This document shows, in pieces, positions 3,001 through 36,344 of a stretch of DNA of 64,000 nt. The position numbers and the translations under genes were made by a program. The stretch spans positions 23,581-87,580 of the forward strand of contig JAEUPP010000010.1 of assembly GCA_016790075.1 (NCBI GenBank), read 5' to 3'. Below the pieces are notes generated by a model. That model did no database searches. It saw only the letters and a list, made by a program, of their open reading frames with translations, and had not been told where the DNA came from. This DNA is from Rhodanobacteraceae bacterium (GTDB lineage Bacteria > Pseudomonadota > Gammaproteobacteria > Xanthomonadales > Rhodanobacteraceae). Position 1 is the first letter of the stretch. Every line of letters starts with the position of its first letter.

Positions 3001-3429
3001 GGCAGCTTGAGCGTCTGGTTTATGGACGGCACTAGCCTGGTCTCCAACCAGGCTCTCGTCCCGAGCGCACCAGCCGATGCCAACTGGTCCTTGCAGGTCC
3101 TCGCTGACTACGACGCCGACGGCGAGGTCGATCTGCTCTGGCGCAACACCAGTTCCGGCGCGCTTGTCGCCTGGCTGATGGATGGCATTACGCGGGGTGA
3201 CCTCGGTTTTCGTGCAATTTGTGGCGACCTAGGCCGGCACAGTTCTCGCCTAGTCAAAACAAGTCCCGAACCCGTACAAAGCAGTTGCCGGTTTCCGCCG
3301 CCTTTCGAACTTTTCGCTCAAGCACCGTCGCGACCGGCAGCTGGCGATCCAGCATTTCCCACAGGTCGAGGCCGTCCATGCAGATCACCTTTCGCGCTCG
3401 GCCGAAGGCGTCCAGACCTTCCGGGGTAA
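1..3429 (+). CDS. Large secreted/surface protein with FN3, Calx-beta and VCBS repeats, 5'-partial and interrupted by the transposon
   Basis: The frame is open from base 1, so the ATG at 16 is probably internal and the gene begins outside the window. Counting from that ATG, about 230 residues come first; they end in a SFIP..SALD...HH pattern that weakly recalls the C-terminus of PGAP1-like esterases (low confidence). A Gly-rich linker follows (about 235-243), then three or four FN3-like domains (about 250-640), two Calx-beta domains (about 645-870, acidic DDD ends) and four VCBS/FG-GAP repeats with W-R/H-N..S.G...VWFMDG-type signatures (about 875-1058). Native coding ends at 3193, inside the fourth repeat. 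The last 78 codons up to the stop at 3427-3429 come from the transposon end. The true C-terminus is at 36125-36344. This is probably a secreted adhesin or enzyme; the truncated product may be nonfunctional. Confidence 0.85.
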   Translation, partial: ASEGAMPGTNEWRFRQLGSEISFKGPGTCDYGSGGLCYCERGPAVESLGPNHNGWATGIRKIAFSHGTWNSTSIQCYGDDRDKDTSGVDLCPRDPGGSGPWVPNIGSVIARLEIDSGSPIPVCWLGNRDFVASAGDLEAGSRHDGLLDRTDRFDPSEVDGAWHRLGAILGGCDTARITQRFAPSFIPIRSALDTDTPFSNGPFDATRTADHHSFHEKVPGEILDWLLTELAQATGGTPPGGGGGGSSVRPAAPSSLTAVPVRFKTNQVELKFQDNSFNEQGFVIYRMRAGEGIWRPVADLDSDVTRFVDEVPVLPDPANTTTYYFYKVQAYNTAGSSAWSNRTEARLYNIEPLRPITDAPDGCADSLRPRLHWFGAKYASSFYVHVADDETGEDLYDNQNHLGNELVLPQALVAGRRYSYIVQGQNNVGRSPWSERRYFIPQCTPLTAPVLEAPRGCVDSVRPTLNWAAVPNAAGYTVKLREVSTVPGVDDRWVYPPNALPWTTDDQFPLSIDLVPGREYWYQVKAGDGVNTGPWSGIRYFSVQCPANPLPGIASPISPYGQVLTSTPTYRWETGHHASSYRLTVRRRPEDQLVFENIYVAAAACNATDCEVTPSQSLPAGSYYFEVQSMNAAGNAPPGPSSSFAVPALPTLSVTDVNVTEGDGATVDANVVVTLAAAAPHPVRLRLRTVDDSAHAPADYTARDENITIAPGVLSYRFTVRVHGDTVHEGTQRLRVLLSNLQGAGSSDTEAFVTIRDDDPAPTVRADDMLLTEPTQGNHAVHAFNVQLAGATELPVDVPYTVQACTATAGSDYTANPSGMLRFDPGISSRSVPFQLLGDNTLEGDELFTLALGTPNAATLIKDYANATVLEHQGPVLGLLRADFDVDGHNDLVWHDPTVNQYGIWSLRGPQRMATTTFDPPAPADVNWSLAAVADFNRDTQPDLLWRNATSGRLSVWFMNGVKRASAQLFDGRTDATIAGVADFGLGASPDILWRANDRVGSLSVWFMDGTSLVSNQALVPSAPADANWSLQVLADYDADGEVDLLWRNTSSGALVAWLMDGITRGDLGFRAICGDLGRHSSRLVKTSPEPVQSSCRFPPPFELFAQAPSRPAAGDPAFPTGRGRPCRSPFALGRRRPDLPG
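3189..3193. repeat. Target-site duplication, left copy (TACGC)
   Basis: TACGC directly precedes the GGGG start of the left inverted repeat. The same five bases follow the right inverted repeat at 36125-36129. A 5-bp duplication is the standard Tn3-family signature. Removing the element plus one copy restores the host reading frame. Confidence 0.95.
3194..3232 (+). repeat. Left terminal inverted repeat of the Tn3-family element
   Basis: 39 bp starting GGGGTGA and ending GGCGACCTAG. Against the reverse complement of 36086-36124 there are four mismatches (positions 8, 11, 13 and 17). The inner 22 bp (GTGCAATTTGTGG... to CCTAG) are identical, as expected for the transposase-binding box. Confidence 0.95.
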
Positions 3430-4129
3430 AGCCGCTCATGCTCACGAACAGGCCGCGGGTCCACGATGCTTTTGTGTCGACCTTTCCGTGGAAGGCGTGC
3501 AGTGGTTCGACGCCGATCGCTGGCCCGGTCCACTTGGCTTCAAACAGGTAGGTTTCACCAGCGAGTACAAACGACCCATCGATCTGTTCGCCAGTGAGAC
3601 GAAACGAAGGGCGTGCCGACAAGCTTTCCTCGGTGAACAACCGGGCCAGGAACGGCTCGAGGGCGTAGCCGCGTGGTTGAGGGGCGAGCGAATGAATCCG
3701 TTCAAGCTCCTGTTTGAGCGCGAGGTACTTTGGAGCCTCGAACGCCGGCGCGGGTGTGCTGCCAGCGGGATGAGTGGTCGGCGCCCCCTCCAGTCGCCCC
3801 ATCAGCTCAATGAAGAGTCCTTCCGCGTTTGCCGGCGGCTGCCGAAACGTTGCGAGCTCCGGATTGGTGGCATACATCCGTTGGCGATAATTCCAGAGCG
3901 CGCGGAGCGTCCGTATCGCGGTGGCATCGTCGACGGTTTTGAGGAAGCAACGCAGGCGCTTCGCCTTGGACGTGCCTTCCTTGCGAAAGCGATCCTCATC
4001 GAAGTCGATGTTGAGTTCCTCGGCAAACCAGGTGTCGATCGTGCGGTCGCTGAAGTCGAGTACCCAGCCGGACCCCATTTCGAAGATGCGATCGATGAGC
4101 TGGATCTCGATCGTGCGAACTTTGGACAT
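3254..4129 (-). CDS. Mrr-like restriction endonuclease (PD-(D/E)XK fold)
   Basis: 291 aa. The C-terminal half is a restriction-endonuclease-like domain: E158 in a leading helix (GYALEPFLARLF), D184 (EQIDGSF), and the E197-A-K199 pair (YLFEAKW), a good PD-(D/E)XK set, followed by an Mrr-type HGKVDTKASWTRGLFVSMSGF stretch broken over two strands. The N-terminal ~85 residues (VLDFSDRT..WFAEELNID, SKAKRLRCFL) form a small helical domain often attached to defence effectors. ATG 4129 is preferred over the GTG at 4156 because GAGG lies 6 bp upstream of it. It is the last of three minus-strand genes after a 73-aa protein and nadE, and ends 21 bp from the left inverted repeat. A role in restricting foreign DNA is inferred; the substrate is unknown. 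Confidence 0.75.
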   Translation of the reverse strand: MSKVRTIEIQLIDRIFEMGSGWVLDFSDRTIDTWFAEELNIDFDEDRFRKEGTSKAKRLRCFLKTVDDATAIRTLRALWNYRQRMYATNPELATFRQPPANAEGLFIELMGRLEGAPTTHPAGSTPAPAFEAPKYLALKQELERIHSLAPQPRGYALEPFLARLFTEESLSARPSFRLTGEQIDGSFVLAGETYLFEAKWTGPAIGVEPLHAFHGKVDTKASWTRGLFVSMSGFTPEGLDAFGRARKVICMDGLDLWEMLDRQLPVATVLERKVRKAAETGNCFVRVRDLF

Positions 4130-4215
4130 GAAGAGCCTCGCAATATCCACACGCACCAGTGACCGGGAAAACGTTGTATACCGTCAAAATCTCTGAGCGC
4201 GTTTCGGCCGGACTG

Positions 4216-5064
4216 TCAGTTCGCTTCAGCGCGCTGCCGGGGCGTCACTGGGCCTGCTCGTTTATGCGCGGTGTTTCGGTATGCCGCGACGATTCGAGCG
4301 GCCGCTTCCGGATCCACGGCATGCCCTTCCAGGAAATCGTCGATCGCATCGTAGCGCACGCCCAAGGCCGTCTCGTCGGGGTGCAAGGGCCGTAGAATTT
4401 CGAGATCCGCGGTGGGTATTTTCTGCACCAGTTCCGCCGGTGCACCCAGGTGTGCGGCCAGCGCTCGGATCCGCCGCTTTGTTAGGCCCGTCAACGGTGC
4501 CACGTCGCAGGCACCGTCGCCGTGCTTGGTGAAGAAGCCCATCACGGCCTCGGCCGCGTGGTCGGTGCCGACCACGAGCCCTTCCAATGCGTTGGCAGCC
4601 GCGTACTGGACGATCATGCGCTGGCGCGCCCGGACGTTGCCGGCAATGAAGTCTGCTGCGTGCGCGTCGCCGAAGGAGGCTCCCGCATCGATCATCGACT
4701 GTAGGGTTGCGTCGACGGCAGCTTGAATGTTGACGCGCAGCACCTGGTCCGGCTGGATGAACGCAATAGCCGCTTCGGCTGCGTGCGCATCGCGCTGCTC
4801 GCCGTACGGCAACCGCATGGCCACGAACTGCGCGGCATACCCTTGAGCGCGTAGCTCGGCAGCGGCCAGCTGACAAAGCCGGCCGGCGGTCAACGAGTCC
4901 ACGCCGCCGCTGATGCCGAGCACCAACGCTCGGCGACCAGAGCGCCGAAGCTCGTCGGCAAGAAATCTCACTCGGTGCCGCCACTCGGTGTCGACGTCAA
5001 AGTGCGTGGCGACATCGAGCGCCGCAGCAATCTGCCGCTGGTCAGCGAACGGATCCGTGTCCAA
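4216..5064 (-). CDS. nadE: NH3-dependent NAD+ synthetase
   Basis: 282 aa, close to the 275 aa of E. coli NadE, with no glutaminase domain, so ammonia-dependent. It catalyses deamido-NAD + ATP + NH3 to NAD+ in the cytoplasm. The PP-loop ATP-pyrophosphatase signature SGGVDS is at residues 52-57. The later GTDHAAEAVMGFFTKHGDGACD segment and the PLTGLTKRRIRALA segment are family hallmarks. It lies 16 bp downstream of the 73-aa gene and upstream of the nuclease gene, in one minus-strand operon. A housekeeping enzyme on a transposon next to a nuclease is unusual. It may replenish NAD+ during an NAD-depleting defence response, but that is inference only. Confidence 0.92.
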   Translation of the reverse strand: MDTDPFADQRQIAAALDVATHFDVDTEWRHRVRFLADELRRSGRRALVLGISGGVDSLTAGRLCQLAAAELRAQGYAAQFVAMRLPYGEQRDAHAAEAAIAFIQPDQVLRVNIQAAVDATLQSMIDAGASFGDAHAADFIAGNVRARQRMIVQYAAANALEGLVVGTDHAAEAVMGFFTKHGDGACDVAPLTGLTKRRIRALAAHLGAPAELVQKIPTADLEILRPLHPDETALGVRYDAIDDFLEGHAVDPEAAARIVAAYRNTAHKRAGPVTPRQRAEAN

Positions 5065-5080
5065 GACGCCGGCGATGCGC

Positions 5081-5302
5081 TTAGCGCTTCTTGCCGACGT
5101 CGCTGCGAATGAGATCGTTCAGCGATTTGTGGCCGGTTTGGTCCAGCAGCGTGTCCAAGTGCATGTCGCTACGAACACCGAAGTCGCGGTCGTATTGCTT
5201 CTCGATCGTGCCGACGTTGGTGTCGCCGCGCTTTTGCCGCAGTGGGCCGCTGTCGTTTCGTGAGCGCTGTCCCCGCATGCCGGGGGCGTCTTTCTTCGCC
5301 AT
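5081..5302 (-). CDS. Conserved small hypothetical protein upstream of nadE
   Basis: 73 aa, very charged and polar with no membrane segment. The N-terminus is basic (MAKKDAPGMRGQRSRNDSG), the middle carries QKRGDTNVGTIEKQYDRDFG, and the C-terminus reads KSLNDLI. The strong Arg/Lys/Asp content with a periodic helical C-terminus suggests a soluble nucleic-acid- or protein-binding partner, but I cannot name a family. It is the first gene of the unit 73aa-nadE-nuclease, with only 16 bp to nadE, so joint expression is likely. Confidence 0.65.
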   Translation of the reverse strand: MAKKDAPGMRGQRSRNDSGPLRQKRGDTNVGTIEKQYDRDFGVRSDMHLDTLLDQTGHKSLNDLIRSDVGKKR

Positions 5303-5587: not shown

Positions 5588-6010
5588 TCAAATCGGCATG
5601 CCAGCGTCTTCGCGCAAGGAAGCGACCAGCGGGCAAGACACTTTCCCGGTCCGCGTCGAACAGGCTTCGAGCAGGTCGGACAGTGCGGACTCCATGCGCT
5701 GCAGGTCATTCAGACGTGCGCGCACATCAGCAAGCCGCGCTGATGCCAGTGCGGCTGCCTCGCGGCAATGGGTACCATCTTCCAGCCTGAGCAACTGCGC
5801 GACTTCGTCCAGGCTGAAGCCCAATCGCTGCGCAGATTTCACGAATCTCACCCGGGCGACTTCCATCGGCCCGTAGTGGCGTATGCCGCCATGAGGCCGA
5901 TTCGGCTCCGCGAGCAAGCCCCTGCGCTGGTAGAAACGGATGGTTTCGACGTTGACGCCGGCCGACTTGGCCAACGCACCGATGGTTAACGGCTCGGAAC
6001 GGGTGTTCAC
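5588..6010 (-). CDS. merR: Mercuric resistance regulator MerR
   Basis: 140 aa starting at GTG 6010. This start aligns it residue for residue with Tn501/Tn21 MerR and places the three Hg(II) ligands at C82, C117 and C126 exactly as in those proteins. The N-terminal winged helix reads [26 protein letters not shown]. The long upstream extension of the open frame lacks MerR similarity and would run through the operator. It is divergent from merT over a shared operator. Family knowledge: it represses without Hg(II) and activates by DNA untwisting when Hg(II) binds. It should control merT, merP and the AhpD-like gene. Confidence 0.95.
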
Positions 6011-6015
6011 GGTGC

Positions 6016-6046
6016 TTGATTCCGTACATAAGTACGGTCGTAACGT
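6016..6046 (+). promoter_or_regulatory. PmerT promoter with MerR operator
   Basis: -35 TTGATT (6016-6021), a 19-bp spacer CCGTACATAAGTACGGTCG (6022-6040) and -10 TAACGT (6041-6046). The spacer contains the dyad CCGTAC-ATAA-GTACGG. The over-long 19-bp spacer and this dyad are the classic mer arrangement (Tn501 has TTGACT, a nearly identical dyad, and TAAGGT). Confidence 0.93.
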
Positions 6047-6077
6047 TAGCGCACGGATGCCGGAAAGGACAAAGCAC

Positions 6078-6428
6078 ATGACGGAGCGTGGACATGGCCG
6101 CGGCGCCTTGGCGATCGGCGGCGTGGCGGCGCTACTGGCTTCCACGTGCTGCCTGGGGCCACTCGTGCTCGTGACGTTGGGCGTCAGCGGCGCGTGGATC
6201 GGCAATCTCACGGCCCTGGAACCGTACCGCCCTTGGTTCATTGCCGCTGCGCTGATCGCCTTGTCGTTCGCGTGGCGGCGCATCTTCCGGCCAACGCAGG
6301 CCTGTGCTCCTGGCGAGATCTGTGCGGCGCCGCGAGTTCGCAGGGGCTACAAAGCGTTCTTCTGGATCGTCGCGTTGCTAGTGGTCGTCGCGATCGGATT
6401 TCCCTACGCCATACCGATCTTCTACTGA
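6078..6428 (+). CDS. merT: Mercuric ion transport protein MerT
   Basis: 116 aa, the usual MerT length, with three membrane segments (about 14-38, 48-67 and 92-113). The TM1 cysteine pair is in ASTCCLGP, and the cytoplasmic-loop pair is in [12 protein letters not shown]. It carries Hg(II) inward across the inner membrane, classically for delivery to MerA. The ATG at 6078 is preceded by AAGGA at about 8 bp; the in-frame ATG at 6057 has no such site. It is the first gene after PmerT and lies 15 bp upstream of merP. Confidence 0.94.
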
Positions 6429-6443
6429 TCGAGGATCATTCCG

Positions 6444-6722
6444 ATGAAAACGCTGTTCACCGCCTTGCTGCTGTTGGCGATCGGCATCGCCCCGGCGATC
6501 GCGGGCACCCGAACGGTCACGTTGTCGGTGCCGTCGATGACGTGCGCCACGTGCCCGATTACGGTCAAGAAGGCATTGCAAAAGGTCGACGGGGTCACCG
6601 AGGCGAAGGTCACCTGGGAACCCAAGGAAGCCGTTGTGACCTACGACGATGCCAAGACCGATGTGAGTGCGTTGACATCAGCCACACAGAATGCCGGCTA
6701 TCCGTCGAGCGTGAAGCCATGA
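6444..6722 (+). CDS. merP: Periplasmic mercuric-ion-binding protein MerP
   Basis: 92 aa with a typical Sec signal peptide (MKTLFTALLLLAIGIAPAIA) and a mature heavy-metal-associated domain of about 72 residues. The metal site is MTCATCP (GMTCxxC class). It binds Hg(II) in the periplasm and passes it to the cysteines of MerT. The stop overlaps the ATG of the following gene (ATGA). Confidence 0.95.
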   Translation: MKTLFTALLLLAIGIAPAIAGTRTVTLSVPSMTCATCPITVKKALQKVDGVTEAKVTWEPKEAVVTYDDAKTDVSALTSATQNAGYPSSVKP

Positions 6723-7057
6723 GCGCGACATCGAATCCTTTCCATGTGGCGGCGTCGCACGTTGAGCAGATGCGCCAGGCGGTGCTGTATACCGACGGGG
6801 TGCTGAGTGCTCGCACCAAGGTATTGGGCGCGTTGTTGTGGTCGGTCAGCGCGCGCTGCGAGCCTTGCCTGACGCATTACGCCCGCAAGGCGGTCGAGCT
6901 GGGGACCACCAAGGAGGAGCTGTCGGAGATGTTGGCGGTGGCCTCGGTGATGGGTGGTTGCGTCGGCGAAACCTGGGCGCTCAAGGCGCTTGCGGCGGCC
7001 AAACCCACCGTCACCGCCGACGGCCCACGCGAGGAGTCTTGCTGCGCCCATCCCTGA
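6719..7057 (+). CDS. AhpD-like/carboxymuconolactone decarboxylase-family protein in the mer operon
   Basis: 112 aa; the ATG overlaps the merP stop by 4 bp, so translation is coupled. The central segment (ARCEPCLTHYARKAVELG, TKEELSEMLAVASVMGG) is the CMD/AhpD fold. It has a redox-type CxxC (C47-E-P-C50) and H53 in the proton-relay position. The C-terminus ends ESCCAHP, a vicinal Cys pair that could bind Hg(II). It occupies the place where merA or merC would be expected. A thiol-based role in handling imported Hg(II) is an inference; the fold assignment is strong. Confidence 0.85.
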   Translation: MSATSNPFHVAASHVEQMRQAVLYTDGVLSARTKVLGALLWSVSARCEPCLTHYARKAVELGTTKEELSEMLAVASVMGGCVGETWALKALAAAKPTVTADGPREESCCAHP

Positions 7058-7087: not shown

Positions 7088-8125
7088 CTACGCGCCGTTG
7101 AGTTCCGGCGGCAGTGTCTCGCCGGGTGAGATCGCACCACGCCGAGCGAGCAATTCGTCGAAGGCCTGGGCGCGTGCGGTGGCGTGCGCGGCGGTGGTCT
7201 CGGCGGCCTGACGCGCAACCTGTTCCCTTGCCAGCGCGTCGCGTGCGGCCGCCACGTCCGCGCGCAGGCCCTCATTGGCGAGTTGCTCCTGCGCCCAGCG
7301 GGTCTGCAGGTTGTCGCGTTCGCGGGCGACAGGTCGTAGCGCCTGGACTTCCTCGTCGAGCCGGCGCAGCTGCGCGCGCAGGTCGCGTGCCTCACGGTCG
7401 TGCTGGCCAGCCTGTTCGGTCAGCCGGACGTTGTCGCGATTGAGCTGCAGCAGCTCCTGGTTCTTGCCGGTGAGGCTGTCGCGGGCTTCGCGCAGATCCA
7501 CCTGCAGCTGCTGCACCTGGTGCTCGTGGCGTCGCTGTTCCTGGTCACGTTGGTCTTTGACGGCGGTCCGGTAGTGCTCCAGCGCCTCGCGGGCGTGCGC
7601 GTGCTTCTGCTCCAGGGACTGCACGTGCGTGTCGCGCTCGGCCAGGCGTGCGGTTACGCCGGCGACACGCTCTTCGAGCTGCCGCACCGTGGCGATCGCG
7701 TCGGCCACGCTAGCCTGGGCCGCCTTTTGTTCAGCCTGGACGGCCTGCAGCGTCTCTTCGGTGCGGCGCAGTTGGGCCGCCAGCCCGGTGTTTTCCTGGC
7801 TGGCCTGCTCCAGCGCGGCCGCGCGCTCGCGCAGCTGGGCGTCGCAGCGCACCTGGGCATCGGCGATGCGTGCATCGGCCTCGGCATTGAGTTGCCCGGC
7901 CAGACGGCTCACGAGATCCGCGAGCGCGTCGCTGATCGGATATTTCCCGCCGACGCCCTGCGCGTCCTCGGACTCGAGCTCTTTGAGGTAGCGATGGATC
8001 GTGGTTTTGGAACCGGTGTTGCCGAGCGCCACGCGCAGCGCATCCACGGAGGGGTGCTTGCCCTGGGCCAGCAGCGCGTTGCGCGCCTTTTCGACCTCGC
8101 TCTTATAGACGCCGCCGCGTGCCAT
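7088..8125 (-). CDS. KfrA-type coiled-coil DNA-binding protein, possible TnpT-like resolution accessory
   Basis: 345 aa. Residues 1 to about 70 (MARGGVYKSEVEKARNALLA, PSVDALRVALGNTGSKTTIHRYL) form the KfrA N-terminal winged-helix domain. Residues ~75-330 are almost continuous heptad-rich coiled coil (QLEERVAGVTARLAERDTHV and similar). The end is GETLPPELNGA. Start ATG 8125 has GAGGAG upstream. KfrA proteins are autoregulated plasmid nucleoid-type proteins. Similar coiled-coil proteins (TnpT of Tn4651, OrfQ of Tn5041) assist tyrosine-recombinase resolution. The inverted-repeat cluster just upstream supports such a role here, which is inferred. Confidence 0.75.
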   Translation of the reverse strand: MARGGVYKSEVEKARNALLAQGKHPSVDALRVALGNTGSKTTIHRYLKELESEDAQGVGGKYPISDALADLVSRLAGQLNAEADARIADAQVRCDAQLRERAAALEQASQENTGLAAQLRRTEETLQAVQAEQKAAQASVADAIATVRQLEERVAGVTARLAERDTHVQSLEQKHAHAREALEHYRTAVKDQRDQEQRRHEHQVQQLQVDLREARDSLTGKNQELLQLNRDNVRLTEQAGQHDREARDLRAQLRRLDEEVQALRPVARERDNLQTRWAQEQLANEGLRADVAAARDALAREQVARQAAETTAAHATARAQAFDELLARRGAISPGETLPPELNGA

Positions 8126-8381
8126 CGGAGACTCCTCGGTGTATTTCGTACTGAATTACATACCACGTAATTACGTAACACTCAAGGCGACAAGTTCAGC
8201 AGAACTGGACGAATGTCTAACACAGGATAATGTTGTCTTATCCCGCCTGAGGCCGCGAAAAAACGGCAAAACGCGGCCGACGCAGTACGAAATGCCCCCT
8301 CACGGGCGACGGGAATGGTACGCAGGACGAGCGCCGTCAACGCCGGCAGAATGCGGCCATCCGCCCGAGGAGGTCACGACC
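8126..8381. promoter_or_regulatory. Inverted-repeat cluster: candidate resolution site and KfrA-like operator
   Basis: This 256-bp divergent intergenic region holds four inverted repeats in 115 bp. They are ACGTAATTACGT (8165-8176, perfect 12-bp palindrome), AGTTC-AGCA-GAACT (8193-8206), GGATAA-TGTTGTC-TTATCC (8225-8243) and GGCCGCG-14 nt-CGCGGCC (8251-8278). The third, with ATAA/TTAT arms around a 7-bp centre, has the shape of a tyrosine-recombinase core. The first lies over the likely promoter of the KfrA-like gene. The upstream extension of the following gene's frame into this region is not treated as coding. Confidence 0.5.
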
Positions 8382-9065
8382 ATGCAGGTGAACTACGCAT
8401 CCCTGGTGCCGAACTCCGTGGCGTCGATCTACCACGACACCAAGCGCGCCAAGAGCTACGCGAGCTGGCTGAGTATCGGAATGGAGATCGAGGTCGTTCG
8501 CCAGATCGCGCTGCGGCTGGAGCGGATGCTCAATGCTCCGGGTCCGGTGGATCGCCTCGCCCAGGAAAGCTTCACGTGGCACCTGGTGCTGCGCTACGGC
8601 CGCTGCTTCGATTCCACCTCGGCGGGACGGTTCGCCGCCCTGGGGATCGAACACGTGCGCAAGCTCAATGACGCCGACTTCCTCACCATCCACCAAGGGT
8701 TGATCCATCGTCGCCACAATACCTTTGCCCATCCCGGCGGCGACTGCTCCTGTCGAGTCAACCTGCATCTGATCGAACAGGCCGGCAATACCACGCTGCA
8801 CGTCGGGCACGATGAAGAGGGTCCGGGCCCGATCAACGATCCCGAGCAGGCCGCCCTCATCGCGCGTCTATGCACCGCATTGCACGCCGTCGTCGAGGAC
8901 AAGGTTGAACGCGCCCGCGCGGCGCATGGCGAGGAACTGATGGCGGAATTCGATGCACTGGTGGCAACGCTACGCGCCAATGCCGGCAAGCACGCCAATC
9001 CCACACAGCAGGCGCTATCGATCTTCGCCCGACTGGGGCAGAACCCGGCGGAGCCCCGGTCGTGA
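8382..9065 (+). CDS. Hypothetical protein with a possible HEPN-like motif
   Basis: 227 aa; ATG 8382 has a strong GAGGAGGT site 7 bp upstream, so the longer open frame to 8139 is rejected. It looks fully helical and soluble. The segment HQGLIHRRHNTFAHPGG has R111...H117 (R-x5-H), which resembles the catalytic Rx4-6H of HEPN ribonucleases. It is followed by the Cys pair DCSC and an acidic, helical C-terminus. I recognise no named family. It sits between the KfrA-like gene and the convergent tcmP, inside a block of defence-like genes. A toxin-like or RNA-targeting role is only a possibility. Confidence 0.6.
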   Translation: MQVNYASLVPNSVASIYHDTKRAKSYASWLSIGMEIEVVRQIALRLERMLNAPGPVDRLAQESFTWHLVLRYGRCFDSTSAGRFAALGIEHVRKLNDADFLTIHQGLIHRRHNTFAHPGGDCSCRVNLHLIEQAGNTTLHVGHDEEGPGPINDPEQAALIARLCTALHAVVEDKVERARAAHGEELMAEFDALVATLRANAGKHANPTQQALSIFARLGQNPAEPRS

Positions 9066-9084: not shown

Positions 9085-10356
9085 TCAGAATCCGAATGTC
9101 TTCTGCGTGGCCGGGAGCAACTGATCCTTGTCGGTGATCGTCGTGGCCTTGAGGCGTCGAGCGCCATCCTGGCCGACAATGTCGATCTCTTTGTGCTGCA
9201 CCAGGCGCTCCAGCGCTTCCTTGTAGCGCACGCTGTCCGCCGGCGAGAGGTTGCAGGTTGTCGCGAACAATTCGCCGAACGACAGGCCATCGTCATGGGC
9301 GTAGATCAGCGGCGGCAATTGCTCCATCAGCGTCGTGACACTCGACTCGCCGGCGAGGTCATCGAAGCAGAAACCGAACGCGCCCTGGCCGGTAAACGCC
9401 CGATCGCGATCGGCGCTGTAGCCAAGACCGCGGAACATATCGATGCCGGCACCGCCGTAGTGGATGAAATAGTTGTTCTTGCTCCAGTGCACGCGTGCCA
9501 TGACGTCTCGGGCGCGCGGATGTTGGGACAAGTGCACGAGCCAGTAGTCGCCGTGGCCTTCGGTGCGAATGAAGAACAGTGTGTAGTACCGAGCGCCGCA
9601 GGCCTCGACGAGCTCGCGATACAGGCAGCTTTGGATGTAGAGCCGCCAGTCCTTTTCGCTGCGCTTGATGTCTTCGATCGAGCGGCCGCGCAGCGCGTCG
9701 GGGATGCCGATATCGGCCAGCGTTTTCTTCGTCGTCTCCGAGTCGCTGGCATAGGTCAGGAACGAATCGACGTTGAACGTGAGAATGACTTCGGCCGCGG
9801 GTAACGCCTGGAAGATCCCACGGATCTGCGCGGTGGGTACATCCGAATACCCGTACTGATCGAGCAGGAAGATCGAGCGGCCCGCCTTGGGGCTCTTCTT
9901 GGCGATGAACTGAAGGATCGGGTCGACCTGGCTTTCGAACGCGCTGTTGAACAGGCGGATGTCCTGGCCGATGCGCGGGCCGTATCCCTGTGCCACCAAC
10001 GTGCGCTGCAGCGACGCGTGGGCATTCGCATCGAGTTCCACGAAGAAGTAGTCGATGTTCATCACCAGCGGCTTCTGACGGCCGCGGTTCAAGAGCTCAG
10101 CCGCCGCTTCGGCCGACTGGAGGAACGCAAACGGCGAGCCGTAGACGGTTTGCCGCGTGGTGTCGTGGACGTAGATGCCGCCGCCGGCGAAGCCGTCGAC
10201 CACGGTCAGACGCAGTTGGTCCTGCTGGGGAGAAACGACCAGGGTCTGGATGTAATCGATCATGTAGGCGCGCAGGACGTCATGCTTGGCGACGCTGTGC
10301 TGCTGGATTACCGCAGGCTTGCCGTCCGCAGGCCATTGATACGGCTTTCGGGCCAC
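9085..10356 (-). CDS. tcmP: Three-Cys-motif partner protein TcmP
   Basis: 423 aa; GTG start at 10356 with GGGGGAGAG just upstream, overlapping the stop of the preceding gene's region. The N-terminal half looks like a Rossmann-type domain (LTVVDGFAGGGIY near 49-62, YFFVELD near 105). The middle reads SIFLLDQYGYSDVP and EVILTFNVDSFL. The C-terminal part looks like a winged helix. The protein always occurs with a three-Cys-motif protein, here the next gene upstream. The biochemical activity of the pair is not established. The pair is common on phages and mobile elements, and I infer a nucleic-acid-modifying or defence role. Confidence 0.82.
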   Translation of the reverse strand: MARKPYQWPADGKPAVIQQHSVAKHDVLRAYMIDYIQTLVVSPQQDQLRLTVVDGFAGGGIYVHDTTRQTVYGSPFAFLQSAEAAAELLNRGRQKPLVMNIDYFFVELDANAHASLQRTLVAQGYGPRIGQDIRLFNSAFESQVDPILQFIAKKSPKAGRSIFLLDQYGYSDVPTAQIRGIFQALPAAEVILTFNVDSFLTYASDSETTKKTLADIGIPDALRGRSIEDIKRSEKDWRLYIQSCLYRELVEACGARYYTLFFIRTEGHGDYWLVHLSQHPRARDVMARVHWSKNNYFIHYGGAGIDMFRGLGYSADRDRAFTGQGAFGFCFDDLAGESSVTTLMEQLPPLIYAHDDGLSFGELFATTCNLSPADSVRYKEALERLVQHKEIDIVGQDGARRLKATTITDKDQLLPATQKTFGF

Positions 10357-11111: not shown

Positions 11112-11190
11112 GACGGCCGCTCCAGGATACGCCCAACTACATCGCCTGCGTCTCAGTGGCTGCGACGACGGGTGGCGCCGGGTGAAAACT

Positions 11191-21997: not shown

Positions 21998-22036
21998 GAA
22001 GGCTCTTCGTCGCGCTGAAGCGATCCGTGTGGTCGC

Positions 22037-28242
<6,206 letters not shown>

Positions 28243-28246
<4 letters not shown>

Positions 28247-30188: not shown

Positions 30189-31378
30189 CGGGGATTTCCT
30201 TTCATCAGGTTCGAGATTTCAGTGGGAACGGGCATCGGTCGGAACGCGCTGACCTGGGCGCCGCCGGTGTTGCCGCGTGGCATCCACAGCCAGGTGAAGA
30301 GTGCGGCCGCGGCGATACGCAGCACCTGTCCGACGATTTCCCGCGCATCCCGTTGCTGGATGGCCCACCGCAGGAACGCCACATGGCTGCGGACATGCGT
30401 TCGTGTGCGCGGTTGTCCCAGCACGTGAGCGCGCTCGAACGCGGCATAGGCCGCCGCGGCATCGCCGGCGTCGAGCGCTGCGTCGCCCTGCGCCAACGCC
30501 GCCTGGAACGCGGCATCGCGTGGAAGGATCGGTGTGGGTGCCGCGCGGAACGGCCAGCGCAGCTGCGCGCCATAGGCCGCCGGGACGGTGTCCTCGCGCA
30601 ATCCCACGTCGCCGGCGCCGACGTGGCCGGGACGATCGAGAAACGTGCCGAAAAGGCGGTCCCAGACCAGCCAGAATTCCCCGAAATTGACCTGCGCGTC
30701 CTCGTACTCGCGCTTGTGGTGCCAGCGATGCAGTTCGGCCGTTCCGAGCCAGCGCCGCAGCGGCCCGACCGAGTAGTCGAGGTTGGCGTGCTGGAACGCC
30801 AGGTGCACGCTCAACAGCGCCAGCCACACGCTCACGACCAGCGCGGGCGCGCCCATCGCCACGACCACGATCAGGCCGGGGCCGGCCATGAGCAGGGCGC
30901 TCAGCGGATGCCGGCGTTCGCCGTTGAGCCAGTACAAGCGCTCGGCGCTGTGGTGGATTGCGTGCAGGCGCCAGGCCCACGCGAATCGGTGACTCACGCG
31001 GTGCATCGCATACAGACCCAGATCGACGATCGCGCCGGCCAGAAGGCACTGTATCCACGCCGGCCAGGTGGTGGGCCATGCCACGCCTGCCGGGATGACC
31101 GTACGCAACGCGTGCAGCGCGTAGGCGGCGCCGGCCAGGAGTGCGAAGTTGACCAGGCCGTGCAGCCGATCCGCGCGCGTGTCGCCATGGTCGCGCTGCC
31201 AGGCGCCCTCGAACGGCTGCAGGCGCTCCAGCAGCGCCACCGCGCCAATGCCCGCGGCCGCGACGACGAGCAGCGTCGGCCACGCCGGCAGGACGCCGAC
31301 GAACACGAGCGTGGCGGCCATCGCCATCGCGCCCATAACGAGGGGATAGGCGCCGTAGCGCATGGCAGTGACGAGCAT
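30185..31378 (-). CDS. Fatty acid hydroxylase/sterol desaturase-like protein fused to DUF3703
   Basis: 397 aa. ATG 31378 has CCGGAGG 8 bp upstream. Residues ~1-275 form a membrane di-iron hydroxylase: about five helices and His clusters HRVSH, HAIHH, NGERRHPL and ELHRWHHKRE. Residues ~285-397 match DUF3703 (DAAFQAALAQG, FERAHVLGQPRTRTHVRSH, GNTGGAQVSAFRPMPVP), a domain normally encoded as a separate small gene beside CDF/czc genes. The fusion supports a shared role of both parts in metal tolerance, perhaps membrane lipid change. First gene of the operon, read from the MerR-type promoter. Confidence 0.85.
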   Translation of the reverse strand: MLVTAMRYGAYPLVMGAMAMAATLVFVGVLPAWPTLLVVAAAGIGAVALLERLQPFEGAWQRDHGDTRADRLHGLVNFALLAGAAYALHALRTVIPAGVAWPTTWPAWIQCLLAGAIVDLGLYAMHRVSHRFAWAWRLHAIHHSAERLYWLNGERRHPLSALLMAGPGLIVVVAMGAPALVVSVWLALLSVHLAFQHANLDYSVGPLRRWLGTAELHRWHHKREYEDAQVNFGEFWLVWDRLFGTFLDRPGHVGAGDVGLREDTVPAAYGAQLRWPFRAAPTPILPRDAAFQAALAQGDAALDAGDAAAAYAAFERAHVLGQPRTRTHVRSHVAFLRWAIQQRDAREIVGQVLRIAAAALFTWLWMPRGNTGGAQVSAFRPMPVPTEISNLMKGNPR

Positions 31379-31423
31379 GGGGCGACCTCCGGACACCCCT
31401 GGTCAGGGGCTTCGAAGGGCGCT

Positions 31424-31454
31424 AGCCTAAAGTCCGTAGTGGCTCCGGAGTCAA
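31424..31454 (-). promoter_or_regulatory. MerR-family (CadR/ZntR/PbrR-type) promoter of the Zn/Cd/Pb operon
   Basis: On the minus strand: -35 TTGACT (31454-31449), a 19-bp spacer CCGGAGCCACTACGGACTT, and -10 TAGGCT (31429-31424). An imperfect dyad, ACTCCGGAG-CCA-CTACGGACT read on the minus strand (31451-31431), sits in the spacer. The over-long spacer and the ACTC...GAGT-type dyad are hallmarks of metal-responsive MerR-family control. The regulator gene starts 4 bp beyond it on the plus strand. Confidence 0.9.
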
Positions 31455-31458
31455 GTCG

Positions 31459-31929
31459 ATGAAGATCAGCGAAGCGGCCGCCGCCAGCGGCTGCCACCTC
31501 GAAACGATCCGCTACTACGAGCGCATCGGCCTCTTGTCCAAGGCCGCCCGTCGCGACAATGGCTACCGCGACTACACCCACGCCGAGGTCGAGCGGCTGC
31601 GTTTCATCACGCGCGGACGCGATCTCGGTTTCAGCCTCGAGGAAATCCAGAGCCTGCTGGCCCTGGCCGAACAGACCGATATGTCGTGCGCCGACGTTGA
31701 CCGGCTGGCACGCGAGCACCTGGCCGACATCCAGGGACGCATCCAGGCCCTGCAACGCATGGCCCAGGAACTCGCGCGCACCATCGAAGGCTGCGCTGGC
31801 GGGGCCCGGGCGCGCTGCGCGATCCTGAGTGACCTGCAGGCGCCGGCCGATCGCGCTGCGCCGAACGCAACACCGGCGCCGAAAGGCGGCCGCCGCCCGG
31901 CCGTGCACCGACCGGGTATCGATGCATGA
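31459..31929 (+). CDS. MerR-family divalent-metal-responsive regulator (CadR/ZntR/PbrR-like)
   Basis: 156 aa. The winged helix reads MKISEAAAASGCHLETIRYYERIGLL. Sensor residues: C77 (DMSCADV), which marks divalent-ion sensors as opposed to CueR with Ser, and C112 and C120 in the loop EGCAGGARARCAIL. After that is a ~30-residue Ala/Pro/Arg tail. It is divergent from the metal operon across a 19-bp-spaced operator, which it should repress or activate according to Zn(II), Cd(II) or Pb(II). The TGA overlaps the ATG of the recombinase gene, an unusual coupling. Confidence 0.92.
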   Translation: MKISEAAAASGCHLETIRYYERIGLLSKAARRDNGYRDYTHAEVERLRFITRGRDLGFSLEEIQSLLALAEQTDMSCADVDRLAREHLADIQGRIQALQRMAQELARTIEGCAGGARARCAILSDLQAPADRAAPNATPAPKGGRRPAVHRPGIDA

Positions 31930-32879
31930 ATCGCGTCGAGCAGTACCTGGAGGCCGCCACGCGTGCGAATACGCGTCGCAGCTACGAGGCCGCAACGCGG
32001 CATTTTGAAGTCGACTGGGGCGGCCATCTGCCGGCCACCGCCGACAGCGTCGCGCGTTATCTCGCCGACTACGCCGGAACGCTCGCCATCAACACGCTCA
32101 AGCACCGGCTCGCGGCGCTCGCGCAATGGCACACGACGCACGGCTTCGCCGATCCCACGCGCACCTCGCACGTGCGCCAGGTCATGAAGGGCATCCAGGC
32201 GCTGCACCCAGCCCTGGAGAAGCGCGCCACGCCGCTACAGCTCGAGCAACTCGCCGGCATCACCGATGGGCTCGAGCACGCGGCTGCGCTGGCCGATCGG
32301 ACCGCACGGCCGGCCGACGCGCTGCGCCATCGGCGAGACCGCGCCCTGATCCTGCTCGGGTTCTGGCGCGGCTTCCGGGGCGACGAACTGCTGCGTCTGC
32401 GCGTGGAGCACCTGCAGGTCGTTCCCGGCCAGGGCATGACGTGCTTTCTGGCGCGTTCCAAGGGCGATCGCCAGAACGCGGGCACGACCTACAAGGTGCC
32501 GGCGCTCACGCGCTGGTGTCCGGTCGCGGCCGTCACCACCTGGCTCGAGGTGTCCTCGCTCACGGCAGGGCCGGTGTTCCGGCGTATCGACCGCTGGGGA
32601 CACTTGGCCGACGACGGGCTACACCCCAACAGCCTGATTCGTGTGTTGCGCCACGTGTTCGCGGCCGCCGGCGTCGCCGACACCGCGACCTACAGCAGCC
32701 ATTCGCTGCGCCGCGGCTTCGCCGGCTGGGCCAACGACAACGGCTGGGACGTCAAGACGCTCATGGAGTACGTCGGTTGGCGCGACATCCACTCGGCCAT
32801 GCGCTACATCGACGGCGGCGACGGGTTCGCGCAGCGGCGCATCGAGACCGCTTTGCCGGCCATCGGCCAGGACCGGTAG
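31926..32879 (+). CDS. Tyrosine recombinase of the transposon (TnpS/TnpI-like)
   Basis: 317 aa. The N-terminal SAM-like arm-binding domain is at ~1-105. In the catalytic domain, Arg-I is in WRGFRGDELLRLR, the HxxR box in YSSHSLRRGFA, the His/Trp in VGWRDIHS, and the nucleophile Tyr in AMRYIDGGD. In Tn3-family elements without a serine resolvase such an enzyme resolves cointegrates. Length agrees with TnpS of Tn4651. The ATG overlaps the metal-regulator stop by 4 bp; it is convergent with tnpA, not next to the KfrA/TnpT-like gene as in Tn4651. Confidence 0.9.
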   Translation: MNRVEQYLEAATRANTRRSYEAATRHFEVDWGGHLPATADSVARYLADYAGTLAINTLKHRLAALAQWHTTHGFADPTRTSHVRQVMKGIQALHPALEKRATPLQLEQLAGITDGLEHAAALADRTARPADALRHRRDRALILLGFWRGFRGDELLRLRVEHLQVVPGQGMTCFLARSKGDRQNAGTTYKVPALTRWCPVAAVTTWLEVSSLTAGPVFRRIDRWGHLADDGLHPNSLIRVLRHVFAAAGVADTATYSSHSLRRGFAGWANDNGWDVKTLMEYVGWRDIHSAMRYIDGGDGFAQRRIETALPAIGQDR

Positions 32880-32962: not shown

Positions 32963-35914
32963 CTACGCCGAGCGGCGCGTGCCCGAGCGCGCCTGGATCA
33001 GCATCTCGCGATACCGGTCGATGCCGAAGCGAAACAGACCACGAAAATTGATGTGGCTCGAGTGGGCCGGCCCCATCCGAGCCAGCCACGTGTCCTCGAC
33101 CGTCTGTCCGGCTTTACGCCACCGATCGACGACGGCCTGCATGCGATGCGTGTTCCACGCCACGACCACGTTCGTCAACAGCGTATGCGCGCCGGAGATC
33201 GCTACCAGCTCGTCTCGCCGCCGTCCGCGTTCGGGCGCGATCTTGCCGGTGTACACGGTCCGCTGCAGCTGGTGGACCGACTCACCGCGGTTGAGCACCG
33301 TGTGGATTTCACGGCGAAAGGCAGGATTGGAAAAGTAGTCGCACAAATAGGCCGTGCGCAGCAAGCGACCCAACTGGTCGGCTGCGCGGCGCACCGGATC
33401 ATCGTCGGCTGCGCTGCCCAGACGTTGCAGCATGACCGTGGCACTCACTCGGCCACTCAGGATGGACGCGGCCACACGCATCATCTCGTCCCAGCCCGTC
33501 CGAATCGCTTTGAGCGACACGTCGCGGATCACCACGCGCTCCAAACCTTCTGGCGTATCCATCCGACGCGGCAGGAACAGCTTGCGCTCGGCGAGGTTCT
33601 TCAGGCGCGGACACAGGTCAAAGCCGAGCAGCTTCGCGAAGGTCATGCCCGGGTACGTATAGCCGTGCGTGTCGACCGCGAGTCGCTGCAACCGAGTTCC
33701 TTCGTTCGTCGCGTTGTGCTGCACCACGCCTTCGATCGCAGGCCCCGCCTGGCGTTCGTTCAACACCACGGGCTGGTTGTACACAATGCCGTGGTGGTCG
33801 AGCAGGTGTGTGTAGACACCAACCGCGTACGTGCGCCGGCGCGGATCCACGCGCGCGTTCCACAGGTTGCGCGACGCATCGATGCTCATCATGTCGCTTG
33901 AGCCCAGGCTCCCGGTGCCCCACAGCGCCGCGATCGCGTGCTGGCGCTGGAACTCCACCACCCGTCGGTTCGCCCGCTGCAAGCGGCCTGGCGACTCCAG
34001 GGCCCGCATCGCTGCGGCGACATGGCCCGGGTCCAGTTGCGGAATCATCGCGGCCACGCTCTTGGCATCGATTTCGGTGCCGTGTGCGAAGAGCGCCGCA
34101 TAGACCGCCACAAGCTCGTGTTCGTCGACGGCGCGCCGGCCGAGCAGCACCTCGCTGAAATTCACCAACGCATCGATGTCCAGGATCAGATCCGGAAACT
34201 GGACGCTGCCGATCTGCCGGTACATCAGGTCGCGCAGCCGTTGCGGTTCGACTTCATCCGGCAGCGGATCCATCGCCGGCAGCCGGAGCATGCCCTGCGC
34301 ATCGATCGATACCGCGCCATCGTTTTTGGCCTCGACGACCGCTGCCAGTCCCGCTTCGATCAGCTTCAAAATCGGGTTGACATAGGCGTCGGGATCGGCC
34401 GGCAGTGATAGCGCGCTCAGATACTGCGACTTCTCGCGTTCCCATTGGTCGCGAGGAATCAGCATCTGCTCGCGCTCGCGGAAGGTAAGGCTGTGGTCGA
34501 TCCAGATCGAGCCGCGGCGCAGACCCTTGCGCAGCTCCAACGCGGTGCAGGCTTCCAGCGCCCGAAACGCGCGGCGGCGATCGCTGGCATTGACAAGCGG
34601 ATCCCAGACCTTGGAGACGGCCATCTTCTGGTCCGCCGGTATCGCGTTCACACCGGCCGCGTCCCATTGCCGAAGTTGCTGCAACTGGTTCAACGACCGG
34701 TCGTTGGGTCGTCCTCGAAATTCCAGGTTCGAGACTGCCGACAGCAACGAGTGCACGCGCACCGGATCATCCGACAGCGCCTCGCGGACGACTGCCGCAT
34801 GGCTGTTGGGGGACAGATCGCCGAGTGCGTCCAGCACCTCGGTGATCGCGGCCAGTCGCTGCTCCGGGGTCCGGGTCGCATCACTCACCAGGTCTTTGAT
34901 GCTGGCCAAGCCTGCGCGGTAGTCCCCGGAGCGCTGGGCTTGCCGCGACTGCGTCTTTCCAGAGGCCTGGCGCGAGAAATCGCCAATCCGCCGGCCGGTT
35001 TGGAACAATGCGCTGTCGGTGAGATCCAGCAGGGTCATTCGCAGGAAGCAGATCTCTTCCAGCAACTGGGTATTGTCCTTGCGACGACGGGACTCGGACG
35101 GTGGCCGGCCGGCAATCGCTTGCGCATAGGCGCGCTGCCGCGCCAGGGGGATAGCCAGCAAGTCCCACGCGTGGACGTGCAACGTCTTCAGAAAGTCGAT
35201 CTTGGCCAACGTCTCGTTGAGCGTCGAAGGACTATGCCGGCGCGGCGGCGTCTTCAACCACTCGAGCACCGTCATGCCCGCATCGCCCCGGGTGGCGAAG
35301 ATGGCTTTTCGACAGGCTTGACGCTGATCGGCCGGGACGACCGTCGTGATGGCGCGGACCGCAACACGTTCGATCCCGGCGAACGCGTCGCGCGCCAGAT
35401 CCCGCAGCGCACGGTCAGCAGGGATGAGCACCTTCTGGTCATACAGCCAGTGCGCGCCAGCCGTCACCAATTCATCGATCGACGCGACATCGCCGGCGTG
35501 CGTCGACAGGACGCTCGACAACTGCGCAAGCATGTCCTTTGAGGCGTCAGCGATACCCAGATGCCGACGTGCCCAACGTTGATGCTCGGAGGCGGTCTCG
35601 CGGCGCTTGTAGATCGAACGCAGGGAGGCGATCGATGGCGGCTGCACCTGCAGCGCGGCACCGAGCGCCCGAAGCAGTACCGGTGGAAGGAGTGGGGCGT
35701 TGTCGAGCGCCCGCCCGGTGGTGCGCAGGAAGACGATCTGCGCCGCCATCGCCACCATTCGATTCTCGACGCCGGGCAAGCGGTCGGCGTGAAATCGGTC
35801 GCGAATGGCCTGGATGGTGTCTGCCGGCAGGCGGAAGTACACATCGATGTCAAACGCCGGCAGATTGCGCGGCAAGCGATCCGCGCCGATGAATCGACTC
35901 AGGTAGCTCGACAT
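32963..35914 (-). CDS. tnpA: Tn3-family transposase TnpA
   Basis: 983 aa from ATG 35914 (GGAG at ~6 bp), the normal size of ~990. The longer frame to 36052 would encode the internal inverted-repeat copy and is rejected. The C-terminal DDE domain is present: SSDMMSIDASRNLW (first Asp), VDTHGYTYPGMTFAKLLGF (second Asp), PRLKNLAERKLFLPR, and DELVAISGAHTLLTNVVVAWNTH (Glu region). It binds the 39-bp ends and makes a replicative cointegrate. Transcription runs inward from the right end. No frameshift was seen, so the element may be active. Confidence 0.95.
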   Translation of the reverse strand: MSSYLSRFIGADRLPRNLPAFDIDVYFRLPADTIQAIRDRFHADRLPGVENRMVAMAAQIVFLRTTGRALDNAPLLPPVLLRALGAALQVQPPSIASLRSIYKRRETASEHQRWARRHLGIADASKDMLAQLSSVLSTHAGDVASIDELVTAGAHWLYDQKVLIPADRALRDLARDAFAGIERVAVRAITTVVPADQRQACRKAIFATRGDAGMTVLEWLKTPPRRHSPSTLNETLAKIDFLKTLHVHAWDLLAIPLARQRAYAQAIAGRPPSESRRRKDNTQLLEEICFLRMTLLDLTDSALFQTGRRIGDFSRQASGKTQSRQAQRSGDYRAGLASIKDLVSDATRTPEQRLAAITEVLDALGDLSPNSHAAVVREALSDDPVRVHSLLSAVSNLEFRGRPNDRSLNQLQQLRQWDAAGVNAIPADQKMAVSKVWDPLVNASDRRRAFRALEACTALELRKGLRRGSIWIDHSLTFREREQMLIPRDQWEREKSQYLSALSLPADPDAYVNPILKLIEAGLAAVVEAKNDGAVSIDAQGMLRLPAMDPLPDEVEPQRLRDLMYRQIGSVQFPDLILDIDALVNFSEVLLGRRAVDEHELVAVYAALFAHGTEIDAKSVAAMIPQLDPGHVAAAMRALESPGRLQRANRRVVEFQRQHAIAALWGTGSLGSSDMMSIDASRNLWNARVDPRRRTYAVGVYTHLLDHHGIVYNQPVVLNERQAGPAIEGVVQHNATNEGTRLQRLAVDTHGYTYPGMTFAKLLGFDLCPRLKNLAERKLFLPRRMDTPEGLERVVIRDVSLKAIRTGWDEMMRVAASILSGRVSATVMLQRLGSAADDDPVRRAADQLGRLLRTAYLCDYFSNPAFRREIHTVLNRGESVHQLQRTVYTGKIAPERGRRRDELVAISGAHTLLTNVVVAWNTHRMQAVVDRWRKAGQTVEDTWLARMGPAHSSHINFRGLFRFGIDRYREMLIQARSGTRRSA

Positions 35915-36001
35915 CTGTGTCTCCGACCAGATCCGAGCCGCCAGAATACGAGCGTAGCGGCTTGACAGGCAACGCGAGTTTGCCCGTGACAGCGACCGCT
36001 C

Positions 36002-36039
36002 CCAGGTCGCCACAAACTGCACGGAAAACAACGGACCTC
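36002..36039 (-). repeat. Subterminal copy of the inner part of the right inverted repeat
   Basis: Aligned to the terminal repeat 36086-36124, about 30 inner bases (from AGGTCGCCACAAA to CGGAAAACAA) match with only two changes, in the same orientation and 84 bp further inside. The outer ~8 bases, including the GGGG end, are not conserved. It looks like a second transposase-binding box or remnant end. It lies upstream of the tnpA start. Confidence 0.85.
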
Positions 36040-36085
36040 GGATCTCGCTCAAATCTAGTGAGCTGATTCGGCTAGCTTTTTTTGG

Positions 36086-36124
36086 CTAGGTCGCCACAAA
36101 TTGCACGGAAAACAAGATCACCCC
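36086..36124 (-). repeat. Right terminal inverted repeat of the Tn3-family element
   Basis: 39 bp, reverse complement beginning GGGGTGATCTTG. It has 35/39 identity to the left repeat and is followed directly by the TACGC target duplication. Confidence 0.95.
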
Positions 36125-36129
36125 TACGC
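36125..36129. repeat. Target-site duplication, right copy (TACGC)
   Basis: Identical to 3189-3193. Confidence 0.95.
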
Positions 36130-36344
36130 GGCGTACCGGCCAAGCGCTCGCTGCACCGTCCTTCACCGATCTCACTTGGCAGCTCAAAAGCAGTTTCGAT
36201 GTCGATGCCGATGGCAGCAACGATTTGCTGTGGCAGCACGCTACTAGCGGCCGCGTCTTCGTTAGCTTCATGAGCGGCCCCAATCTGCGCTGCGGTACCA
36301 CCTTGTTTATGGAACCCAGCTTGCGCGCAGTCGGCCCGCGTTGA
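36125..36344 (+). pseudogene. 3' remnant of the interrupted VCBS-repeat surface protein gene
   Basis: Joining base 3193 to 36130 keeps the frame and continues the broken VCBS repeat: DGIT is followed by RRTGQALAAPSFTDLTWQL, then a further repeat SSFDVDADGSNDLLWQHATS with GRVFVSFMSGP, and a final NLRCGTTLFMEP tail before TGA at 36342-36344. The fragment has no start of its own and should not be expressed as a functional product. Confidence 0.93.

Follow-up and report, generated by a model that had tools for sequence, protein, structure and literature searches.

A 33-kb Tn3-family transposon in a repeat-protein gene of a Rhodanobacteraceae bacterium, and a resolution site that may double as a point of arm exchange

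Overview

A 64,000-bp stretch of contig JAEUPP010000010.1 of a Rhodanobacteraceae bacterium (assembly GCA_016790075.1, positions 23,581 to 87,580; here called the window) carries a Tn3-family transposon of 32,931 bp (3194-36124) inside a gene for a repeat protein. The element combines a transposase of the IS1071/IS882 type with the TnpS/TnpT/rst resolution system, the two protein genes of which are separated by a long, mainly metal-related cargo. The preferred reading, with a probability of about 80%, is a Tn3-type insertion by a modular transposon, the resolution site of which, rst, may also serve as a point where related elements swap their arms.

Judged from the families of its proteins, the unit transposon would have entered the secreted or surface repeat-protein gene by replicative (paste-and-copy) transposition. 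TnpA would act on the 39-bp ends and generate the 5-bp duplication, and the resulting cointegrate would be resolved by TnpS, assisted by TnpT, at rst beside tnpT. A crossover between the rst sites of two related elements could then swap their arms. The left arm would comprise the left end, the mrr/nadE/mer cargo, tnpT and rst, and the right arm the TcmP/DUF5131 genes, the metal efflux cargo, merR2-tnpS, tnpA and the right end. Such a swap is conceivable because TnpS acts at rst. As far as sequence comparison allows, it would explain sister elements that are alike in one arm and unlike in the other, and it would help explain why an IS1071/IS882-type TnpA is paired with this tnpT.

Insertion site and limits of the element

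Repeat comparison places the terminal inverted repeats at 3194-3232 (plus strand) and 36086-36124 (minus strand). They are identical at 35 of 39 positions, lose their similarity directly past position 39, and are flanked on both sides by the target-site duplication TACGC (3189-3193 and 36125-36129). The top 39-mer match among 60 pairs of random Markov sequences (3 kb by 3 kb) was 28, so the ends described in the initial annotation are confirmed. A 5-bp duplication and ends of about 38 bp starting with GGGG are traits of the Tn3 family, and both are found here, with ends of 39 bp.

The 5' part of the interrupted gene occupies 16-3193 of the window (plus strand) and encodes Calx-beta, fn3 and FG-GAP repeats. 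Its open reading frame (ORF) begins outside the window, 1,053 bp before position 1 (C46:22528), and Pfam gives no match above cut-off for the N-terminal part of the protein. Joined-frame analysis assigns the 3' part to 36130-36344 (plus strand). When position 3193 is joined to 36130, the frame stays open until the stop at 36342-36344, whereas the two alternative frames from 36130 end after 47 and 38 codons. The residues behind the junction match the preceding repeat at 19 of 50 positions without gaps, a score reached by 4 of 127,696 equal-length stretches in the six frames of the window, the repeat itself included. Homologues in two other genomes (L017, L021) align over residue 1060, in some alignments ungapped there. 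The ancestral gene can thus be rebuilt as originally proposed, with both frame and repeat register kept. By Pfam, the repeats are FG-GAP and FG-GAP_3, the latter presumably the family formerly named VCBS.

The limits of the element also stand. With up to 3 mismatches allowed, the genome contains a 20-base stretch of the ends three times, always within the element, and the window holds no terminal repeat further out. TnpA is present in the genome as one full copy, plus a 64-residue match elsewhere.

The host protein was searched against 61 genomes (its own and 60 relatives), 38 of which have a match at E <= 0.001. Apart from the own gene, the matches listed are partial and at most 45% identical, and no orthologue was seen among the 60 relatives. 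The right flank, searched as DNA in all eight genomes of the genus, gave only short matches outside its own locus, nearly all under kinase and sigma-factor genes. Neither the 60 relatives nor, as judged by the right flank, the other 7 members of the genus thus yielded a natural empty site. The intact joined frame is consistent with a recent insertion. The left 24.8 kb of the element matches 128 records among 72,556 plasmids, none of which covers 80% of it at a single place; among the 15 rows listed, the matches fall over efflux genes of the resistance-nodulation-division (RND) type and their neighbours.

Adjoining the host gene is a region (36448-39974) that encodes an ECF sigma factor and a TPR-repeat Ser/Thr kinase and has many short paralogous matches within the genus. 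A second FG-GAP-type repeat ORF lies close to the host gene (40107-40409, minus strand) and matches the host protein.

The transposase and an inner copy of the right end

The tnpA gene (32963-35914, minus strand) encodes a DDE transposase, assigned to the Tn3 family and the IS1071/IS882 type by Pfam, NCBIfam and a tree. It matches PF01526 at E 8.5e-111 and scores 731 bits with NF033527 (cut-off 500), in agreement with the family first proposed. In an 18-row tree, it shares a clade of 100/100 support with IS1071, IS882 and related elements from plasmids and genomes, whereas Tn4651 stands far off, and grouping it with Tn4651-type rows gives p 1e-45 in the approximately unbiased (AU) test. Its identity is approximately 37% to IS1071 and 50% to IS882. 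Since the tree was built without Tn3, Tn163, Tn3000 and Tn4430 references, the subgroup is stated only relative to IS1071, IS882, Tn4651 and Tn21-like TnpA. Rows in two frames (L008, L026) and partial or distant ones (L009, L010, L011, G507, G466, G001 C28) were set aside. The solved structures found comprise two distinct sequences, both of Tn4430 TnpA.

The start of tnpA is placed at the first in-frame ATG (35914). In alignments to nine relatives, the match sets in at residues 44-53 of the long ORF, which supports this putative start, whereas IS1071 records align from residues 5-19. Between tnpA and the right end lies a degenerate copy of that end (36002-36040, minus strand), 84 bp inside it, which matches the inner part of the repeat at 27 of 29 positions and lacks the GGGG tip. 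It could represent a former end that has fallen out of use, or an additional site for TnpA. No promoter emerged from a sigma-70 scan of 35850-36200, and Rfam at gathering threshold gave no match in 3000-36500.

The TnpS/TnpT/rst system

The tnpS gene (31926-32879, plus strand) encodes a tyrosine recombinase that is 58% identical over 301 aa to TnpS of Tn4651 and, as read by eye, has recombinase motifs in common with it. The resolution helper gene tnpT (7088-8125, minus strand) encodes a protein with a KfrA_N match that is 45% identical over 281 aa to Tn4651 TnpT. Upstream of tnpT lies rst (8143-8293). It comprises two palindromes, one at 8155-8171 (in 8144-8177) and the core at 8224-8244, and a third conserved motif (8283-8293). 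The element thus has a TnpS-type recombinase, a TnpT helper and an rst with two palindromes. Passages of PMC4619425 give palindrome sizes of 17 bp for TnpT and 23 bp for TnpS, on which basis the palindrome at 8155-8171 is probably the TnpT-type site and the core the TnpS site.

The geometry of the core, with a 5-bp spacer, recurs 94-106 bp from the tnpT start in all 16 tnpT genes scanned, a set that leaves out the TnpT of G374, G171, G537, G425 and C80 and a second match in W01. In 11 of the 16, the core has 0-2 mismatches, and none of 320 shuffles reached 3 or fewer. Within 600 bp before tnpS, 15 of 16 loci have no core match at up to 4 mismatches, the other (G157) having two at 4; in the 250 bp before all 16 tnpS starts, the best match has 6.

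Separation of tnpS and tnpT

In the window, tnpS and tnpT are divergent and 23,800 bp apart, with TcmP/DUF5131, SseB-like and metal-related genes between them. The parts of PMC7157771 consulted describe a divergent pair of genes, tnpS and tnpT, that enclose rst and nothing else; here the orientation is the same, but rst is not alone in the gap. Passengers between the two genes are already reported for TnXocp1 and three kin, where the region is called highly variable, in the passages of PMC4619425 available. The idea that a split resolvase is unprecedented was dropped for this reason.

Among 369 genomes of the class, 5 have a TnpS (E <= 1e-60) and 6 a TnpT (E <= 1e-15); among 200 genomes of the order, the numbers are 9 (E <= 1e-60) and 11 (E <= 1e-25), the own genome being counted each time. 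These searches, the loci followed up and pWW0 give 12 pairs of tnpT and tnpS on the same contig. Ten of these are separated by 2.9-60 kb, all divergent; the exceptions are Tn4651, with a gap of 180 bp, and G374, with adjacent genes on the same strand. The pairs of G585, G588 and G057 have a common right arm and are not independent. The count leaves out loci with the genes on separate contigs (G157, G425, G428), with tnpS only (G050, and G001 C26, whose contig lacks tnpT) or with tnpT only (G171, G452, G512, G537), as well as the remnant G000 C80, G001 C12 (tnpT and a tnpS stub) and the second, 33% TnpT-like match in W01.

Two wide loci deserve mention. In Acidovorax soli (G426, contig C2, 484677-556736), tnpA, tnpT and tnpS extend across 72 kb with a large metal cargo; its ends were not found, and it is possibly a very large element. 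In the two-contig genome G022 (contig C2, 2405761-2454201), a TnpA sister to that of IS1071 (100/99) is convergent with an interrupted tnpS, and tnpT lies 42 kb away.

Mosaic arms

Signs of exchange come from three sister elements, G585, G588 and G057, which have nearly the same TnpA and TnpS and clearly different TnpTs. In alignments read from tnpT outward, G585 and G057 pass from 64% to 91% identity, with the best breakpoint at +96, the edge of the core. G585 and G588 pass from 71% to 91% (+156) and G588 and G057 from 65% to 94% (+154), both by the third motif. The gain in log-likelihood (lnL) is 113-228 for these steps, compared with 8.4 or less in 200 column shuffles per pair, and all three lie between tnpT and the first cargo gene, within 40 bp of the core. 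In the window, TnpA belongs to the IS1071/IS882 clade, while TnpT groups with the TnpT of a genome of the same genus (100/99), and forcing it to join the TnpTs of its TnpA kin gives an AU p of 2e-12. The trees leave out TnpS of G374 and TnpT of G374, G171, G537, G425 and C80. Recombination at rst would be the simplest account of this mosaic.

Several observations weigh against the preferred reading. Two of the three steps (+154 and +156) lie about 38 bp past the core and only one at its edge, and column shuffles are a weak null for such steps. Holding TnpS with the TnpA kin gives an AU p of 0.097, which falls to 0.01 only after a partial G022 row is added, and the backbone of the TnpS tree has a support of 45/11. 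The window's own rst has no identity step into a common right arm; homology to relatives stops there. The core has 4-6 mismatches in 5 of the 16 tnpT genes (W01, G426, G428, G157, Tn4651), and shuffles often score alike, with 217 of 320 at 6 or fewer and 316-319 of 320 at 7 or fewer. By score, the core in these five could be chance, and only its constant position and spacer favour it. Finally, a search for 38-mers starting with GGGG found repeats enclosing tnpA, tnpS and tnpT in only 2 of 11 loci, the window and W01, the latter without matching 5-bp flanks. When 9 loci were searched with looser criteria, L024 (= W01), L025, L026 and L028 gave pairs of repeats, but L006-L009 and L027 did not.

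Two further loci resemble the element. In a genome of the same genus, contig C12 of G001 (351462-372945; L069, L077) carries TcmP/DUF5131, a homologue of the protein at 12498, merR2, cation diffusion facilitator, FTR1 and tnpT genes at 77-85% DNA identity to the element, rearranged and with a tnpS stub after merR2. In the same genome as the element, contig C80 of G000 (20771-28346; L078) has a decayed tnpT, the matched part of which includes two TAG codons. Next to it is a cus-type cluster that shares 86.9% identity with window positions 14541-21499 across 6,960 bp. The C80 locus is perhaps an older relative of the element.

Overlap of merR2 and tnpS

The merR2 gene (31459-31929, plus strand) encodes a MerR-family metal regulator, the best model for which is CueR, below its cut-off. 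It is preceded by a putative MerR-type divergent promoter/operator (31424-31454, minus strand) with -35- and -10-like hexamers 19 bp apart. Its stop overlaps the tnpS start by 4 nt, as also in G585, G588 and G057. In G001 C26 (a second, partial copy), G507 and G425, a merR-type gene ends approximately 2, 19 and 133 nt before tnpS. A merR-type gene precedes tnpS in 7 of the 17 tnpS loci compared, one of which offered just 199 bp upstream; at the remaining loci, other genes or no genes occupy this place. By pattern match, a MerR-type divergent promoter with a 19-bp spacer lies before the merR2 homologue in 6 of 7 loci. The stub after merR2 in G001 C12 resembles the start of tnpS.

This layout suggests the hypothesis that tnpS is under metal control. 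A bolder version seems unlikely. In it, rst has turned into an integron-like site where TnpS shuffles whole arms, tnpT arms and cargo-tnpS-tnpA arms, between elements; its separation from rst has brought tnpS under a MerR-type operator, downstream of merR in a shared operon, and metal ions set the rate of both resolution and swapping.

Alternative explanations

The mosaic might also have arisen by homologous recombination, or through cargo inserted step by step into the gap from rst to tnpS, in which case rst would be purely a resolution site. We lean against this, although it is a serious contender. The two steps past the core leave room for homologous recombination, and the rearranged cargo blocks and tnpS stub of G001 C12 are what ordinary recombination leaves behind. 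In its favour is also the mer block of approximately 1.7 kb, which lies between tnpT and the ORF at 5081, away from rst, and is missing from G001 C12. What speaks against this alternative is that three steps of such large contrast all fall between tnpT and the first cargo gene and no more than 40 bp from the core.

Two further alternatives concern the ends. It is rather doubtful that the inner copy at 36002-36040 was the original right end and that the element was later extended outward by a second one. The copy lies 126 bp from the inferred tnpA start, near the roughly 121-165 bp that separate end and tnpA in six relatives (L008, L024-L028), whereas the present end is 210 bp away; none of these relatives has an inner copy, their best matches being 14-16 of 29. 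Yet an inward duplication of the real end would look alike, the tip is missing, the distance depends on the chosen tnpA start, and the resemblance of the inner copy to the right end hardly differs from that of the left end, which matches it at 26 of the same 29 positions. Far less credible still is a chance pair of TACGC-flanked repeats around a genomic island that arrived otherwise. A large mixed cargo and a tyrosine recombinase would suit such an island, but the similarity of the ends exceeds that of every random pair, the joined frame and repeat register are exact, tnpA adjoins one end, and the recombinase closely resembles TnpS of Tn4651, which is a known resolvase. The Tn3-type insertion remains the preferred reading.

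Cargo

The main cargo is metal efflux, with two RND systems, a cation diffusion facilitator, an FTR1-cytochrome protein and MerR regulators. Profile matches to these and the mer genes bear out the metal handling proposed initially. On the plus strand, 15081-21108 encodes a Cus/Czc-type system (outer membrane factor, CusB-type adaptor with a CusF domain, CusA-type RND pump). On the minus strand follow an FTR1 permease fused to a cytochrome c domain (22037-24070), a second RND heavy-metal efflux system of pump, adaptor and outer membrane factor (24067-29691), the cation diffusion facilitator (29565-30188) and a fatty acid hydroxylase/DUF3703 protein (30185-31396).

Left of tnpT lies a mer unit of merR, merT, merP and an AhpD-like gene. 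It consists of a mercury-type merR (5588-6283, minus strand; TIGR02051 above cut-off, the domain starting at about residue 96 of the ORF), merT (6078-6428; PF02411, E 2e-52), a merP-like gene for a heavy-metal-associated domain protein (6444-6722; PF00403) and a gene for an AhpD/CMD-family protein (6713-7057; PF02627), the last three on the plus strand. No merA was found among the ORFs scanned. The N-terminal part of ORF 6146-7057 was rejected as spurious, as its mer matches come from merT and merP in other frames. Further left, all on the minus strand, are genes for an Mrr-type restriction endonuclease domain protein (3254-4156; PF04471, E 4e-8) and a nadE-like NAD+ synthase (4216-5064; NF001979 above cut-off), and a small ORF without a Pfam match (5081-5302) that is conserved beside tnpT in the sister island G001 C12.

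To the right of rst, a plus-strand gene for a protein without a Pfam match (8382-9065) precedes those for the three-Cys-motif partner protein TcmP (9085-10356, minus strand; TIGR04474 above cut-off, PDC-M30A) and an adjoining DUF5131 protein (10371-11198, minus strand; PF07505, PDC-M30B). Side by side, the two form the PDC-M30 pair of PADLOC, and both also match PDC-M41 models; we take PDC to denote candidate systems. They are followed by a helix-turn-helix regulator (11213-11584, plus strand), an SseB-like protein (11659-12465, minus strand) and a 600-aa protein (12498-14300, minus strand) that has no Pfam match and a weak ApeA-like C-terminal match in PADLOC (E 6e-4). The claim of several defence-like genes is therefore weakened: the Mrr domain, the TcmP/DUF5131 candidate pair and the weak ApeA match stand, but no complete known defence system was seen among the cargo genes. 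The ORF at 14304-15119 was read as spurious by its composition and is unmatched in Pfam, PADLOC and NCBIfam; the DNA over it is nevertheless common to contig C80.

Comparison with known systems

The TnpS, TnpT and rst of Tn4651 (plasmid pWW0) are homologous to those of the element. Tn4651 differs in the close spacing of its tnpS and tnpT and in its TnpA, which is just 22% identical in the matched part. Conversely, IS1071 and IS882 are in one clade with the element by TnpA, but no TnpS or TnpT homologue was found near their matches (0.8 kb on each side for IS1071, 3 kb for IS882). An unrelated-looking integrase gene is annotated near IS882. IS1071 is not known to have a resolvase.

A close counterpart in layout is an element on the Burkholderia aenigmatica plasmid NZ_CP091649 (166818-187793), with the same TnpA type, tnpS convergent with tnpA, tnpT and rst near the other end, and 15.4 kb of cargo including mer between them. 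It differs in cargo and ends and lacks matching 5-bp flanks. As described in passages of PMC4619425, TnXocp1 and its kin (TnXop1, TnSml1, TnPsd1) likewise have tnpA and tnpS linked and tnpT apart, metal-resistance and other passengers in the tnpS-tnpT gap together with rst, and, in some, 5-bp duplications. The element has the same placement of cargo between tnpS and tnpT, and differs from TnXocp1, compared by this description, in its IS1071/IS882-type TnpA, convergent with tnpS. The TnpA of TnXocp1 is given as 41.1% identical to that of TnXax1 (PMC4619425, in part), which is filed under Tn4651 in the relevant part of PMC7157771.

The same parts of PMC7157771 assign TnpS/TnpT/rst to Tn4651 and some Tn163 members, and describe transposons that recombine at TnpR-type res sites. 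The portions of the literature searched (PMC7157771, PMC5755412, PMC10667641, PMC8453159, PMC4619425, PMC3606827, PMC6304161, PMC8012812 and PMC6399125) contain no report of an IS1071/IS882-type transposase with TnpS/TnpT or of arm exchange at rst, and no published report was found there of an identity step inside rst among three sister elements or of a tnpS overlapping merR behind a MerR-type operator. Measured against this literature, the element appears new in the partner of its transposase, in the mosaic linked to rst and in the overlap of merR with tnpS, whereas cargo in the tnpS-tnpT gap is already known.

Significance

The element extends the TnpS/TnpT/rst system to IS1071/IS882-type transposases and offers a cleanly bounded example of this combination. 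Its sister elements allow direct testing of whether arms are exchanged at the resolution site. The merR-tnpS overlap makes possible metal control of a resolvase easy to address with a reporter.

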